NCBI GenBank assembly: GCA_019635585.1
Contig: JAHBZE010000001.1
Span: forward strand, 124,001-188,000
Length of the DNA stretch: 64,000 nt
Origin: Xanthobacteraceae bacterium
GTDB lineage: Bacteria; Pseudomonadota; Alphaproteobacteria; Rhizobiales; Xanthobacteraceae
Direction: 5' to 3'
A model generated the notes under the pieces. That model ran no database searches, was not told where the DNA came from, and worked only from the letters and a program-made list of their open reading frames with translations. Positions 36,784 through 41,928 of the stretch are shown in pieces. The stretch's first letter is position 1. Each line of letters opens with the position of its first letter. The translations under genes and the position numbers were made by a program.

Positions 36784-38280
36784 TCAGTTCTGTCCCAGCA
36801 GGCTCCGTACCGATTTTTTCCAGCCTGCGAGCTTACGCTGCCGCATTGCGGTATCCATGCCCGGCGTAAAGCGGCGCTCCAGCCGCCACGAGTCCCCGAA
36901 TTGATCCGGCGGCGGCAAAAGACCGGCAGCGAGCCCCGCCAGATAGGCCGCACCCATCGCGGTCGTTTCCTTCACCGTCGGCCGGTCGACCGGCGCCGCG
37001 AGCAGATCCGCCAACCGTTGCATGGTCCAGTCGGACGCGACCATGCCGCCATCGACCCGAAGCACAGTCGCGGCACCTTTCGCCTGCGGCCAGTCGGCCT
37101 GCATCGCTTCCAGCAAATCGGCGGTCTGATAGCAGACGCTTTCGAGCGCCGCGCGCGCGAATTCCTTCGGTCCGCTATTTCGCGTGAGCCCGAACAGCGC
37201 GCCGCGTACTTCCGAATTCCAATATGGCGCGCCGAGACCAACGAATGCAGGCACGAGATAGACATCCTGCGCCGGGTCAGCTTCTTCTGCGAGCGGCCCG
37301 GTTTCGGACGCATGTTTCACGATGCCTAATCCGTCGCGCAGCCACTGCACGGCAGCGCCCGCGATAAAGATCGAACCTTCGAGCGCATAGGTGCGCTTGC
37401 CGTTCAACTGATAGGCGATGGTCGTGAGCAGCCGGTTCTTCGACGCGACCGGCGTTGCGCCGGTGTTCAGCAATGCAAAACATCCGGTCCCGTAGGTCGA
37501 CTTCATCATGCCGGGATTAAAGCAAGCTTGGCCGACCGTTGCAGCCTGCTGATCGCCGGCAATGCCGCGCACCGCAATCGCGCCGCCGAACAACTCGGTC
37601 ATCGTCGTGCCGAAATCACCGGCGCAATCGCGCACATCCGGCAGCACAGCACGCGGCACGTTCAGCAATTTCAAAAGTTCATCGTCCCATTCTCCCCGAT
37701 GGATATCGAACAGGAGCGTGCGCGACGCGTTCGTCGCATCGGTCGCATGAACCTCGCCGCCGGTAAGGTGCCACAGGAGAAAACAATCGACCGTGCCGAA
37801 GGCAAGTTCGCCGCGCTGTGCGCGGGCACGCGCACCCGGAACGTGATCCAGAATCCAGGCAAGCTTGGTTCCGGAAAAATAGGGATCGAGCAGCAAGCCG
37901 GTCTTGGCTGCGATCTGCTTTTCGTGACCTTCCTTTTTCAGTTGCTCGCAACGGTCCGCCGTGCGGCGGTCCTGCCACACGATCGCGCGATGGACTGCTT
38001 TGCCGGTCGCGCGGTCCCAGACGACGGTCGTCTCGCGCTGGTTGGTAATTCCGATTGCGGCAACGTCCTTCGCCAACGCCCTGCCCTTTTCCATCGCCTC
38101 ACGGCACACCGAAAGCGTGGTGCGCAGGAGATCCTCGGGCTCGTGCTCGACCCAGCCGGACGCGGGAAAATGCTGCGCGAATTCTTGTTGGCCGATTGCC
38201 GCGACCGTCATGTCCTCGCGAAACAGGATGGCGCGCGACGACGTCGTGCCCTGATCGATGGCAAGCAGGAATTTCGACAA
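36784..38280 (-). CDS. glpK: Glycerol kinase
   Basis: FGGY-family kinase phosphorylating glycerol with ATP to sn-glycerol 3-phosphate in the cytoplasm, 498 residues. It begins [20 protein letters not shown] (phosphate-binding), has [34 protein letters not shown], and the FGGY signature part [18 protein letters not shown] plus [15 protein letters not shown] and [16 protein letters not shown] in the ATPase half. No glpF or glpD is adjacent. It diverges from the sensor kinase gene across 65 bp. Confidence 0.95.
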
Positions 38281-38345
38281 ACGCGCCTCCCAGGTGCGGT
38301 ATTGGGCCGGTGTTTCCCCGGCTTGTCCGTGATATTAGCCAATCC

Positions 38346-40013
38346 ATGGTTGCGCGCGAACTCCCGCACAGCGCGGTTTCACAGCCCGCCAGCCGTTTCC
38401 GACAGGCGGCGGTCCCGCTGGCCTTTCTCGGCGCCTATGTGGGGCTCGAATGGCTGAGTTTTATCCACGAGTATAAGGGCGTGCCGATCACGCCCTGGAA
38501 CCCGGGGCTCGGCGTGCTGTTTGCGCTGATGATTCTCGGCGGCCCGGTCTATGCGCTGTTGTTGTTCACCGGCGTGGTGATTTCCGAAACGCTGGTGCTG
38601 AAGACCAACCTGCAATGGCCGATCATTCTCGGGATCGCCGCCATCATCGCGGCCGTCTATGGCGCCGCTGCCTGGCTCGCGCGGAGCCGGTTCACGCTCG
38701 ACATCAGCTTAAGGAAACTTCGCGATGTCGGCGTACTGCTTGGCGCCGGACTTGCCGGTGCGCTGTTCGCGACCTTGCTGCTCTCGCTACTCCTGGTCCT
38801 GGAGCCGAACCTGAGTTGGGCCGACGTCGTCATCGCGCTCACGCCGCTTCTGGTTGGCGACACGATCGGGATCGCCGTCGTCACCCCACTTGTCATGCGC
38901 GCGATGCATCCGCATCGGCTTCCGTTTCTCTCGGCAAAAGTGGCTGCCGAAATCGTCCTCTACGCGATGCTGATCGCGGGGTCGCTCTGGATTATCGCCG
39001 CTGCCGGCGCGGCGAACGGCGTTAAGCTCTTCTATCTTCTCTTTGTGCCCGTCGTGCTTGCGGCACTGCGTTTCGGACTTGATGGCGCTTGTGTTGCGCT
39101 GGCACTCGCACAACTCGGCCTCGTGGTCGTGCTCCGCTTTTTTTCCGCCGACGCGCAGACTTTCACGGAATTCCAGATCCTGATGCTGGTCCTGACCGTG
39201 ACCGGACTAATCGTCGGTGCGGTCGTAAGCGAACGCGAACGCTCCGAGGAACATGTGCGCGACGCCGAGCGCCGCTTCAAGGAAAAGGAAATGGAGGCGG
39301 TGCATGCCGCACGCTTCACGCTGGTCAGCGGCATGGCTTCCGCACTCGCACACGAAATCAATCAGCCGATGACGGCGGCTCGCGCGCTCGCACGCTCGGC
39401 GCAGGAACTAATCCGCAAACCGGACGCTGACTTCGCCCGCGCCGATACCAACCTCACGAATATGATCGCGCAGGTCGATCTTGCCGGCGCCATTGTCCGG
39501 CGCATGCGGGAATTTCTCCGGCGCGGGCATCCCCGCGTCAGCACTGTCGATGCCACGAACGTGCTCGACGATGCCTTGATGCTCGCCCGCTCCGAGGCGG
39601 CGGCAAAGGATATCCGTCTTGTGCTGAAATACGAGAATAGCCTTCCGCCGATTTATGGCGACCGGGTGCAGTTACAGCAGGTGGTCCTCAACCTGATTCG
39701 TAACAGTATCGACTCGATTGCAGGCGCAAAGCGCGGCGGCGAAATCGTCGTGAGTGCGCGGCATCTTTTCACACCCGATCGTATTGAATTTAGCGTATGG
39801 GATAGCGGCCCCGGTATCGGCGAGGAAATCGCGGAGCGGCTGTTCGAGCCCCTGATGACTTCGAAACACGAAGGTCTCGGCCTCGGACTTCCCATCTGCA
39901 CCTCCATTGTCGAGGCACATGGCGGAAAGATATGGCTTCAATCGAGCACGCCGGGGGCTACCGAGTTTCGCTTCACTATACCGGCCGGGGATAAACGGAA
40001 CGACCAAAGATGA
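38346..40013 (+). CDS. MASE1-type membrane sensor histidine kinase
   Basis: A 555-residue membrane histidine kinase from ATG 38346. The first 300 residues hold about eight hydrophobic helices with TPWNPGLGVLFALMILGG, typical of the MASE1 sensory domain. A short coiled linker follows without a clear PAS domain. The phosphoacceptor His336 is in SALAHEINQPMTAARAL. ATPase motifs are QVVLNLIRNSIDS (N box), DSGPGIGEEIAERLFEP (G1/F) and LGLGLPICTSIVEAHGG (G2). It is coupled by a four-base overlap to the FixJ-type regulator gene, so the two form a two-component pair. The signal is unknown. Confidence 0.9.
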   Translation: MVARELPHSAVSQPASRFRQAAVPLAFLGAYVGLEWLSFIHEYKGVPITPWNPGLGVLFALMILGGPVYALLLFTGVVISETLVLKTNLQWPIILGIAAIIAAVYGAAAWLARSRFTLDISLRKLRDVGVLLGAGLAGALFATLLLSLLLVLEPNLSWADVVIALTPLLVGDTIGIAVVTPLVMRAMHPHRLPFLSAKVAAEIVLYAMLIAGSLWIIAAAGAANGVKLFYLLFVPVVLAALRFGLDGACVALALAQLGLVVVLRFFSADAQTFTEFQILMLVLTVTGLIVGAVVSERERSEEHVRDAERRFKEKEMEAVHAARFTLVSGMASALAHEINQPMTAARALARSAQELIRKPDADFARADTNLTNMIAQVDLAGAIVRRMREFLRRGHPRVSTVDATNVLDDALMLARSEAAAKDIRLVLKYENSLPPIYGDRVQLQQVVLNLIRNSIDSIAGAKRGGEIVVSARHLFTPDRIEFSVWDSGPGIGEEIAERLFEPLMTSKHEGLGLGLPICTSIVEAHGGKIWLQSSTPGATEFRFTIPAGDKRNDQR

Positions 40014-40624
40014 CGGGACCGACGATCTACATTGTCGACGATCAGGAATCGGTGCGGAGTGCGCTCGGCGAGATGCTGAACGTCTTCGGCTTCCAGACCG
40101 AGAGTTTCGAGTCCGCCGACAGCTTCCTCGAAAAGCTCGATTCTTCGCGCCCCGCCTGCATTGTCGCGGACGTTCGGATGCCCGGAACGGACGGCATCGA
40201 ACTCGTCCGGCAGCTCGGAAAACGCGGCGTTTCGCTGCCAGTGGTGCTAATTTCGGGCCATGCCGATATTCCGATGGCGGTCTCCGCGATCAAGGCTGGC
40301 GCCGAGGAGTTCATCGAGAAGCCGGTCGATGACACGCAGCTCGTTGCCGCCATTAATCGCGGATTGGCGCGGCTCCATGACAATCTGGGCGCTTCGCGCT
40401 CCGGCGAGGAGTTGCGCGAGCGTTTTGCGCGCCTGACACCGCGGCAGACTGAAATTTTCGATCTGGTTGCGGAAGGTCTGACGAGCCAGAACGTCGCGGA
40501 CAAGCTCGGGATCAGCGTCCGCACCGTCGAGAGCTACCGCGCGGAAATCATGGAAAAGATGCAGGCGCAGAGCGTCGCCGTGCTGGTGCGGCAGGCCGTG
40601 AAGCTCGGCAGAGTAATCCCGTAA
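40010..40624 (+). CDS. FixJ-type two-component response regulator
   Basis: A 204-residue transcription factor. The receiver domain contains Asp10/Asp11, the phosphorylation site Asp54 in VADVRMPG, Ser82 in LISGHAD and Lys104 in EKPV. The C-terminal LuxR/FixJ helix-turn-helix runs from about residue 140 (LTPRQTEIFDLVAEGLTSQNVADKLGISVRTVESYRAEIM). It is the partner of the MASE1 kinase. A perfect inverted repeat lies over its stop codon (40617-40634), with a related half-site before the next gene. Confidence 0.93.
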   Translation: MTGPTIYIVDDQESVRSALGEMLNVFGFQTESFESADSFLEKLDSSRPACIVADVRMPGTDGIELVRQLGKRGVSLPVVLISGHADIPMAVSAIKAGAEEFIEKPVDDTQLVAAINRGLARLHDNLGASRSGEELRERFARLTPRQTEIFDLVAEGLTSQNVADKLGISVRTVESYRAEIMEKMQAQSVAVLVRQAVKLGRVIP

Positions 40625-40634
40625 AACTACGGGA
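40617..40634 (+). promoter_or_regulatory. Perfect inverted repeat at the end of the regulator gene
   Basis: TCCCGTA, spacer AAAC, TACGGGA: a 7-bp perfect inverted repeat spanning the TAA stop. There is no T-run after it, so it is a poor terminator. The 8-mer ACTACGGG in it recurs as its complement CCCGTAGT at 40708-40715 before the next gene. It could be an operator of the adjacent FixJ-type regulator or an RNA stem. Confidence 0.4.
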
Positions 40635-40730
40635 GGAATGCTACGAATACTCACGCGGCGGCCGTGTGACTAATTTCGATTCCTGACGCCGCGAGCCTTG
40701 TACGCGGCCCGTAGTTATCAGGAGCGAACC

Positions 40731-41075
40731 ATGGCGCTCTCAGGCTGCAAGCCTGAACGGCGACAGACCTTTTCAGCAGAACTGCGCGATCCGCGGACAC
40801 GCCTGAAAGTTCTTTTCATCCTCGGGGCGACTCCCGCCGCCGCGGTCGCGTTGTTCGCGCCGTCCGCAATCTCGCTGCCGCTCGCGAGCCTCGTATCGCT
40901 CCTTCTGGCAGGCGTCTTCGGCTTCTATGCCTGGCATCGGCGCACGGATCATCGCGCGCAGGGCCTCACCTTTCGCGACCTCGCGGGAATGCTTGCCCTG
41001 ATCGGATTCAGTGCTGGCGCAGTGTCCGAACCCGCCGCCGCCCTCGAATTATTCGGGATGGCCGCAACGAGATAA
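40731..41075 (+). CDS. Small membrane protein of unknown function
   Basis: I do not recognise this 114-residue protein. After about 22 polar residues (MALSGCKPERRQTFSAELRD) it has two adjoining hydrophobic helices (about 24-60, VLFILGATPAAAVALF and SLVSLLLAGVFGFYAW), a polar loop HRRTDHRAQGLTFRD and a third hydrophobic segment (about 79-97). GGAGCG stands five bases before the ATG. A TTG at 40698 would extend it by eleven residues. It lies between the response regulator and the structured leader of the TerC-family gene, and might be a target of the regulator. Confidence 0.65.
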   Translation: MALSGCKPERRQTFSAELRDPRTRLKVLFILGATPAAAVALFAPSAISLPLASLVSLLLAGVFGFYAWHRRTDHRAQGLTFRDLAGMLALIGFSAGAVSEPAAALELFGMAATR

Positions 41076-41090
41076 CCGACATCATCAACC

Positions 41091-41152
41091 AAGACCGGGC
41101 CCCTCTGGCAGTTCCACACGGACTGCGATGTCGGTCTTAACCAAGGAGAGGG
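41091..41152 (+). ncRNA. Pseudoknot-forming leader element (candidate riboswitch aptamer) of the TerC-family gene
   Basis: Three helices can form together. P1 is AAGACCG (41091-41097) with CGGTCTT (41132-41138). P2 is GCAGT/ACTGC plus CC/GG around one bulged T, loop ACAC (41108-41126). A pseudoknot forms between CCCTCT (41101-41106), inside the P1 loop, and AGAGGG (41147-41152), downstream of P1. About 20 pairs in 62 bases, all in a non-coding leader. I do not see the yybP-ykoY manganese riboswitch core. It may correspond to the published terC RNA motif of Alphaproteobacteria, whose consensus I cannot check here. Confidence 0.6.
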
Positions 41153-41215
41153 TCCGTGGACCTATTGTATCGAAAAACTGTTCGAACGCGTCCGGCTATG
41201 CCAGCCGATGATGTG

Positions 41216-41250
41216 CATGCGCGCCTTCAGGCTTGTGGAGGCGCCGCATG
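41216..41250 (+). promoter_or_regulatory. Start-codon-sequestering hairpin of the TerC-family gene
   Basis: CATGCGCGCC (41216-41225) pairs with GGCGCCGCATG (41240-41250) in ten base pairs with a single bulged C. The helix includes the ATG start (41248-41250), and the Shine-Dalgarno TGGAG sits in the loop and at the stem edge. This would block initiation and fits an expression platform controlled by the upstream pseudoknot. A smaller hairpin, CGGCT/AGCCG, lies just before it (41193-41207). Confidence 0.6.
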
Positions 41251-41928
41251 AACACGATCATGACGATCATGCCCGCCGATGCATGGGTGGCGCTGTTTCA
41301 GGTCATCATGATCGACCTCGTACTCGCCGCCGACAATGCGATCGTAATCGGCCTTGCGGCTGCTGGCCTTCCCCGTGAACAGCGCGCCCGCGCAATTCTG
41401 ATCGGTATCATCGCTGCAACGGTGCTTCGCATCGGCTTCGCCGCGATGACGACGCAACTTCTGCAAGTCGTCGGGCTTTTGTTTGCCGGTGGCATTTTGC
41501 TTCTGTGGGTCTGCTGGAAGATGTGGCGCGAGCTTCGCACCAGCGCACACGATGAAGACGAAGCAGTCGAGGCGATGACCGGCGAGGACATCAACAAGGA
41601 CGGAACCGTCGCCGGTTCCGCGCCGCGCAAGACATTCGCGCAGGCCGCATGGCAGATTGTCGTTGCCGACGTTTCGATGTCGCTCGACAACGTGCTCGCG
41701 GTCGCCGGTGCGGCGCGCGAACACCCTTGGGTGCTCGTGTTCGGTCTTGCCCTCTCGATCGCGCTGATGGGTATCGCCGCCTCTTTCATCGCCCGCATAC
41801 TCCAGAAATATCGCTGGATCGCATATATCGGCCTTGCGGTTATTCTCTATGTCGCGTTCGAGATGATTTTCCGGGGTGGCCTGGAACTGAAGCCTTTCGC
41901 GACCAGTCTCGCGGCGCGCTTTTTCTGA
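41248..41928 (+). CDS. TerC/YjbE family integral membrane protein (putative metal exporter)
   Basis: A 226-residue inner-membrane protein with about seven helices in two similar halves. Each half carries the TerC acidic motif: IDLVLAADNAIVIGLAAAGL near the start and VADVSMSLDNVLAVAGAA in the second half, with Asp/Asn residues thought to bind divalent metal. A cytoplasmic acidic loop DEDEAVEAMTGEDINKDG links the halves. Characterised relatives (YkoY, Alx, MeeF/MeeY) export manganese or load it onto exported proteins; the name of the metal here is inference. The ATG at 41248 lies inside a strong hairpin. Confidence 0.88.
   Translation: MNTIMTIMPADAWVALFQVIMIDLVLAADNAIVIGLAAAGLPREQRARAILIGIIAATVLRIGFAAMTTQLLQVVGLLFAGGILLLWVCWKMWRELRTSAHDEDEAVEAMTGEDINKDGTVAGSAPRKTFAQAAWQIVVADVSMSLDNVLAVAGAAREHPWVLVFGLALSIALMGIAASFIARILQKYRWIAYIGLAVILYVAFEMIFRGGLELKPFATSLAARFF

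Follow-up and report, generated by a model that had tools for sequence, protein, structure and literature searches.

The terC leader at positions 41087 to 41156 of the window, as we call the whole stretch of 64,000 nucleotides of DNA that was analysed, is a terC RNA that probably acts as a translational two-state switch, including, in the window's genus, a relay through a short leader open reading frame (ORF). Comparison of homologous leaders firmly supports a P1/P2 core with invariant loop strands, together with complementarity of its GGGCCCCUCU strand to a ribosome-binding site. The RNA family itself was already known; the comparison contributes a likely mode of action, a variant with a leader ORF and a broader range of regulated genes. 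The features of the locus are these:

40731-41075, forward strand: small conserved gene with no Pfam match, with homologues at the loci of relatives
41087-41143, forward strand: aptamer-like core of the terC RNA (Rfam RF03067; 54.1 bits, model positions 1-59 complete)
41091-41098, forward strand: 5' strand of P1, 8 bp with 41131-41138, from P1/P2 covariation in 50 sequences
41096-41106, forward strand: core strand CGGGCCCCUCU, comprising the end of P1 and the internal loop, and doubling as putative anti-Shine-Dalgarno and 5' strand of the alternative helix P-alt (minimum free energy (MFE) fold and homologues)
41108-41114, forward strand: 5' strand of P2, 7 bp with 41120-41126
41120-41126, forward strand: 3' strand of P2, partner of 41108-41114
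41131-41138, forward strand: 3' strand of P1, partner of 41091-41098
41143-41150, forward strand: Shine-Dalgarno sequence of the leader ORF, AAGGAGAG
41145-41156, forward strand: predicted 3' strand of P-alt, GGAGAGGGUCCG, over the leader-ORF ribosome-binding site and the G of its GTG start codon (MFE fold)
41156-41251, forward strand: leader ORF with GTG start and 31 codons, its TGA (41249-41251) overlapping the terC ATG (ATGA)
41216-41250, forward strand: hairpin within the leader ORF, predicted to bury the terC Shine-Dalgarno sequence and ATG (z = -3.33)
41237-41241, forward strand: terC's own Shine-Dalgarno sequence, GGAGG, read from the sequence
41248-41928, forward strand: terC, encoding a TerC-family membrane protein of 226 aa (Pfam PF03741, E = 2.2e-46)

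Membership in the terC RNA family is almost certain. The initial annotation had offered this family as a guess, and the Rfam covariance model bears it out, with 54.1 bits against a gathering score of 39.9 bits [E = 1.8e-8 for the 801 bases searched]; the likeness covers the full length of the model, in sequence, in P1/P2 and in the internal loop, and extends to the position before a TerC gene. The RF03067 model ends just after P1; the second hairpin, the leader ORF and the Shine-Dalgarno pairing lie outside it, and Rfam types the family as Cis-reg only. In a search of the open-licence literature, we found no assignment of a ligand or mechanism to the terC RNA. The same annotation rightly saw no yybP-ykoY core: RF00080 gives no match at E values up to 10 within 40800-41600, none at its cut-off across the window and none at E <= 0.001 in the window's own genome, and a yybP-ykoY identity was therefore rejected. 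No Rfam family other than the terC RNA and tRNA reaches its curated cut-off in the window.

In the window's own genome (3.2 Mb), which has three TerC genes, this copy is the sole RF03067 match at E <= 0.001. The terC RNA is found in 6 of 7 genomes of the genus and is common in the family (93 of 149 genomes), where, in contrast, yybP-ykoY is rare (8 of 149, with 4 over the cut-off); in samples that overlap one another, the order has it in 98 of 297 genomes, the class in 40 of 289 and the phylum in 64 of 398. The terC gene of the window is one that we take to be of YjbE type, the subfamily labels YjbE, Alx and YoaE being our own presumed assignments within TerC, the family that was tested. Upstream of it, the small conserved gene ends 11 nt before the terC RNA. 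Many YjbE loci have a homologue immediately upstream, and in L022, L024, L064 and L082 the homologue separates the RNA from terC; the product of the small gene is possibly a TerC partner. From this upstream gene context, the terC RNA may lie inside an operon. A consensus scan of 40600-41320, covering sigma-70 promoter types, found neither an intrinsic terminator nor a sigma-70 promoter (0.5 and 0.3 expected). Farther upstream (38055-40624) are genes for a MASE1 histidine kinase and a LuxR-type response regulator, and a LuxR-type regulator also stands upstream in several relatives.

Taken singly, the window leader has an unexceptional folding energy, not far below that of its shuffles (z = -1.56; 15 of 200 shuffles fold as well), and the case for structure thus rests on comparison. 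In an alignment of 50 copies, hand-chosen among 88 search-fetched loci, P1 and P2 covary strongly: standard pairs fill 93.8% of the cells in the 14 modelled pairs, cells changed on both sides number 157 against 52.1 in shuffles, and the covariation score is 0.566 against 0.205. Of the five measures, one stays at the level of the shuffles: the count of pairs changed on both sides (9 against 8.5, reached by 295 of 500). Changes on both sides occur in 6 of the 7 pairs of P2 and in 3 of the 7 modelled pairs of P1, of which the other 4 never vary, and in 26 of the 50 copies the bases of one P1 pair (columns 8/57) do not pair. The initial annotation would have given up its reading had P1 failed to covary; P1 does covary, in a helix of 8 bp rather than the 7 bp drawn there, while P2 has the 7 bp claimed for it, with one U-G pair or, in the register of that annotation, a bulged U. 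The inner P1 pairs and the internal loop do not vary among the 50 sequences, 23 columns being invariant, and the conserved loop (GCCCCUCUG / GAUG) is present in the window copy. Near-invariance of both loop strands would be typical of an aptamer pocket.

The loop strand had initially been placed in a 6-bp pseudoknot belonging to the aptamer. The complementarity is indeed there, between CCCUCU at 41101-41106 and AGAGGG at 41147-41152, but the MFE structure of the window leader extends it to 11 bp, in which 41096-41106 pairs with 41145-41148 and 41150-41156 and A41149 is bulged; in this ligand-free prediction the helix encloses P2, and P1 is lost. Because the predicted pairing is 11 bp long and uses P1 nucleotides, it resembles an alternative, covered state more than a static part of the aptamer. 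The initial annotation had also missed that the 3' strand of its pseudoknot is the ribosome-binding site of the leader ORF, with AAGGAGAG and a GTG at 41156. The near-invariant core strand GGGCCCCUCU is, in our model, better read as a built-in anti-Shine-Dalgarno sequence, and the alternative helix very probably covers the ribosome-binding site. P-alt is the MFE structure in the window leader (L001) and in the four genus relatives that have the ORF, with P1 probabilities of 0.00-0.21. According to the folding program, which cannot score pseudoknots, the fold constrained to P1 and P2 is 4.3 kcal/mol less stable than the MFE structure (-25.1 vs -29.4 kcal/mol), a gap that could be closed by a bound ligand or by co-transcriptional folding. 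The computed pairing over the ribosome-binding site would give the leader the layout of a translational riboswitch, and the complementarity of the core strand to that site supports the translational control that had been proposed from the start.

We envisage a resting state in which the GGGCCCCUCU strand would leave P1 and cover the ribosome-binding site of the leader ORF. With the signal present, which is probably either an ion (Mn2+ or Na+, for example) or alkaline pH, the same strand would be held in the P1/P2 core, the site would be free and translation would rise. In the window's genus, the freed site would start the 31-codon leader ORF, and ribosomes translating it would melt the hairpin over the terC ribosome-binding site and re-initiate at the overlapping ATG.

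Such a leader-ORF relay in the window's genus we consider probable. Against a 16S anti-Shine-Dalgarno oligonucleotide, the Shine-Dalgarno sequence of the leader ORF pairs at -11.8 kcal/mol and that of terC at -9.3 kcal/mol. The start-codon hairpin at 41216-41250 exists as initially described, with 14 bp and one bulge instead of the 10 bp counted then, and it contains both the GGAGG at 41237-41241 and the ATG at 41248-41250; lying within an ORF, it would be opened more simply by a translating ribosome than by a ligand directly. The terC Shine-Dalgarno sequence is predicted to be paired within the ORF hairpin in 5/5 genus loci with the ORF (shuffle z of -3.33, -0.79, -2.13, -1.47 and -0.75). The ORF has no Pfam match, and its peptide is not conserved, L072 and L073 differing in 4 synonymous vs 7 non-synonymous codons. 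This last point agrees with the view that the RNA controls terC directly, the leader ORF being an untranslated chance frame and the second hairpin an extra sequestering element or without a role, as does the sixth genus member, L028, in which terC itself starts at the place of the missing ORF. We nevertheless regard this view as rather unlikely, as five of the six genus members with the RNA keep the Shine-Dalgarno sequence, the GTG and the exact 4-nt stop/start overlap in spite of changes in length (96, 96, 78, 78 and 75 nt with the stop in L001, L010, L072, L073 and L110, all in frame), and some 100 nt separate the Shine-Dalgarno sequence covered by the RNA from terC, a distance too great for it to serve that gene. 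Across genera the overlap is not clearly above chance, a point on the side of the chance frame: the YjbE loci in which a Shine-Dalgarno sequence and a start codon stand well before terC number 26, and in 11 of them the frame stops close to the terC start (7.0 expected); loci of the window's genus make up 5 of these 11. The overlap was accordingly rejected as a family-wide rule, and we propose the relay for the window's genus only. By our reading of the locus list, the covered site is apparently terC's own in about 17 of 73 YjbE loci, L028 among them.

To what extent is the pairing with the Shine-Dalgarno sequence conserved? The 208 loci were fetched mostly best-scoring first and do not comprise all listed matches, so that weak matches are under-represented. 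A regular expression recovered 206 motif copies, with L119, L121, L130, L139 and L200 outside it and examined apart, and the ensemble count covers the 203 copies that are left after dropping identical leaders. P-alt was counted wherever the core strand pairs with the downstream region at a mean ensemble probability above 0.5, with the expectation taken from shuffles. By this measure P-alt is found in 114 of the 203 copies (57.5 expected), and the types of loci differ: it is present in 61 of 73 YjbE-type loci (23.4 expected), the other 12 falling short of 0.5, in 11 of 15 lipid-kinase loci (3.8 expected) and in 20 of 44 loci with other genes (11.8 expected); it is little above chance in YoaE-type loci (4 of 11; 2.5 expected) and at chance in Alx-type loci of the window's class (18 of 60; 15.9 expected). 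Duplex energies give P <= 0.05 in 51 of 73 YjbE loci and in 79 of 206 copies overall. Of 30 later loci (L273-L302), 22 fit the expression, with P-alt in 10 (7.6 expected); they were split afterwards into 16 from the window's order and class, in which P-alt is at chance (5; 5.1 expected), and 14 from one family of another class of the phylum, 8 of them outside the expression. These 14 (L283-L296; 8 genomes of 2 genera, 13 distinct leaders) show P-alt in 13 (4.9 expected); all 14 lead to an Alx-type TerC gene by tblastn, and in 11 the terC start is preceded by GGAGGGGC, which complements the core strand almost perfectly. Two groups thus appear to have a strong Shine-Dalgarno pairing, and in others it is missing or another pairing takes its place.

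In the YjbE loci the commonest partner of the core strand is GGAGUGGCCC (22 of 73), and a possible start codon follows just after the partner in 55 of 73. The core strand GGGCCCCUCUG itself is found in 207 of the 208 loci, which were chosen by an Rfam model that favours it. At its position 6 the partner is G in only 21 of 73 YjbE loci, and near-invariance in spite of such mismatches indicates that the strand is kept for more than the Shine-Dalgarno pairing. Covariation of the pseudoknot strand, on which the initial annotation had also counted, is no more than suggestive, because the core strand is almost invariant. We sought variants at its position 4 in 84,980 species genomes and matched 61 stretches, some of which, in distant phyla, are perhaps not terC RNAs; 37 pass a P1/P2 filter, and 35 are left after removal of duplicates. 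Apparent compensation is seen in L230 (GGGUCCCU with downstream AGGGACCC) and in L200 (GGGACCC with GGUCCC). Among 34 A/U variants that pass the filter, 23 fit their downstream strand better with the own base than with the swapped one, 9 fit it less well and 2 equally well [one-sided P = 0.010, uncorrected for kinship, in a test that favours U variants since U pairs with A or G], and an alignment test with position 4 masked gives mixed partners.

Another arrangement is seen in L003, L005, L011, L015, L017 and L019, all of YoaE type, in which the complement of GAUGUCGG comes directly after it and the two could form an alternative anti-P1 hairpin. In YoaE-type loci this other core strand, GAUGUCGG, pairs with the following CCGACAUC-like sequence in 8 of 12 at P <= 0.05. 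As a general device the hairpin of GAUGUCGG with downstream CCGACAUC was rejected, and since it is near-absent at YjbE loci (3 of 73) it was not used for the window.

The preQ1 and SAM-II translational riboswitches likewise have a core strand that doubles as anti-Shine-Dalgarno, and preQ1-II and SAM-II set the precedent for a pseudoknot that switches expression off. A main rival of our reading follows them, with P1, P2 and the helix between loop and ribosome-binding site coexisting in a ligand-bound RNA that represses. It accounts for a 6-bp complementarity to the loop alone, and the near-constant linker to the Shine-Dalgarno strand in YjbE loci (quartiles 10-12 nt) is also predicted by a true pseudoknot. 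We judge it unlikely on three counts. In 60 of 73 YjbE loci all three leading G's of the core strand are paired, two P1 G's included, and a downstream strand that complements both the loop and these G's favours competition with P1; the linker ranges over 7-47 nt in YjbE loci and measures 21-34 nt in the other class; and efflux-type genes would hardly be expected to be repressed when the signal is in excess. Unlike that of preQ1 and SAM-II, then, the Shine-Dalgarno helix of the window is apparently a competitor of P1, and the signal is predicted to turn expression on.

For the two-state switch that we prefer, the direction is argued from analogy. Like the terC RNA, yybP-ykoY controls a TerC-family gene, alx. 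On balance we lean towards a signal that turns expression on, because the yybP-ykoY elements controlling alx and mntP in E. coli are activated by Mn2+ and alkaline pH (PMC9603457). The Li+ riboswitches nhaA-I and nhaA-II also precede cation-transporter genes, including nhaA, and the ion turns expression on (PMC9646797). They differ from the case at hand in that the window matches neither at curated cut-offs and in that most terC RNA targets are TerC genes.

The genes that follow other copies suggest ion or pH homeostasis. For 228 motif copies we used tblastn against members with tested Pfam names to find the first recognisable gene that follows. The TerC clan comes first in 165 of them (Alx 74, YjbE 73, YoaE 12, DUF475 6) and a lipid kinase in 15, with TerC then seen in at least 6; the others are DUF4112 (8), F1-ATPase inhibitor zeta (6), zinc-ribbon (6), Na+/Ca2+ exchanger (5), P-type ATPase (5), TerB (4), CitMHS (2), a gene without Pfam match (2), ExoD (1), NhaA (1) and unassigned (8). 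In some copies the recognised gene is 250-420 nt off and another may precede it, as for ExoD in L167 and NhaA in L181. Examples of non-terC loci are L016, L023, L061 and L143 (CitMHS, Na+/Ca2+ exchanger, P-type ATPase and DUF4112) and L149, L167, L181 and L195 (F1-ATPase inhibitor zeta, ExoD, NhaA and TerB). A YegS-type lipid kinase gene stands between the terC RNA and the TerC gene in L029, L030, L032, L034, L036 and L043. In L188 and L197, near 1501-1720, two terC RNAs on opposite strands lie back to back about 100 nt apart, and one RNA of each pair leads to a DUF4112 gene. That the RNA is a pH- or protein-responsive element and not a sensor of a small ligand or ion is improbable given the near-invariant internal loop, typical on both strands of an aptamer pocket, although the Cis-reg typing would allow it and homologues of NhaA, the Na+/Ca2+ exchanger, F1-ATPase inhibitor zeta, ExoD and the P-type ATPase fit pH homeostasis.

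We tentatively suggest that the terC RNA may be the counterpart of yybP-ykoY in its own lineage, an on-switch for an ion or alkaline pH with a regulon for ion and pH homeostasis, a core strand that serves as anti-Shine-Dalgarno and, in the window's genus, a leader-ORF relay. Beyond TerC, members of the RNA family stand before genes for an antiporter, an exchanger, a P-type ATPase and an ATPase inhibitor. If the suggestion is true, the regulon would consist of the TerC subfamilies, DUF475, NhaA, Na+/Ca2+ exchanger, P-type ATPase, F1-ATPase inhibitor zeta, ExoD, TerB, DUF4112 and lipid kinase, and the comparison yields testable predictions as to which bases would switch, where the ribosome would be blocked and which ions or pH to try first.
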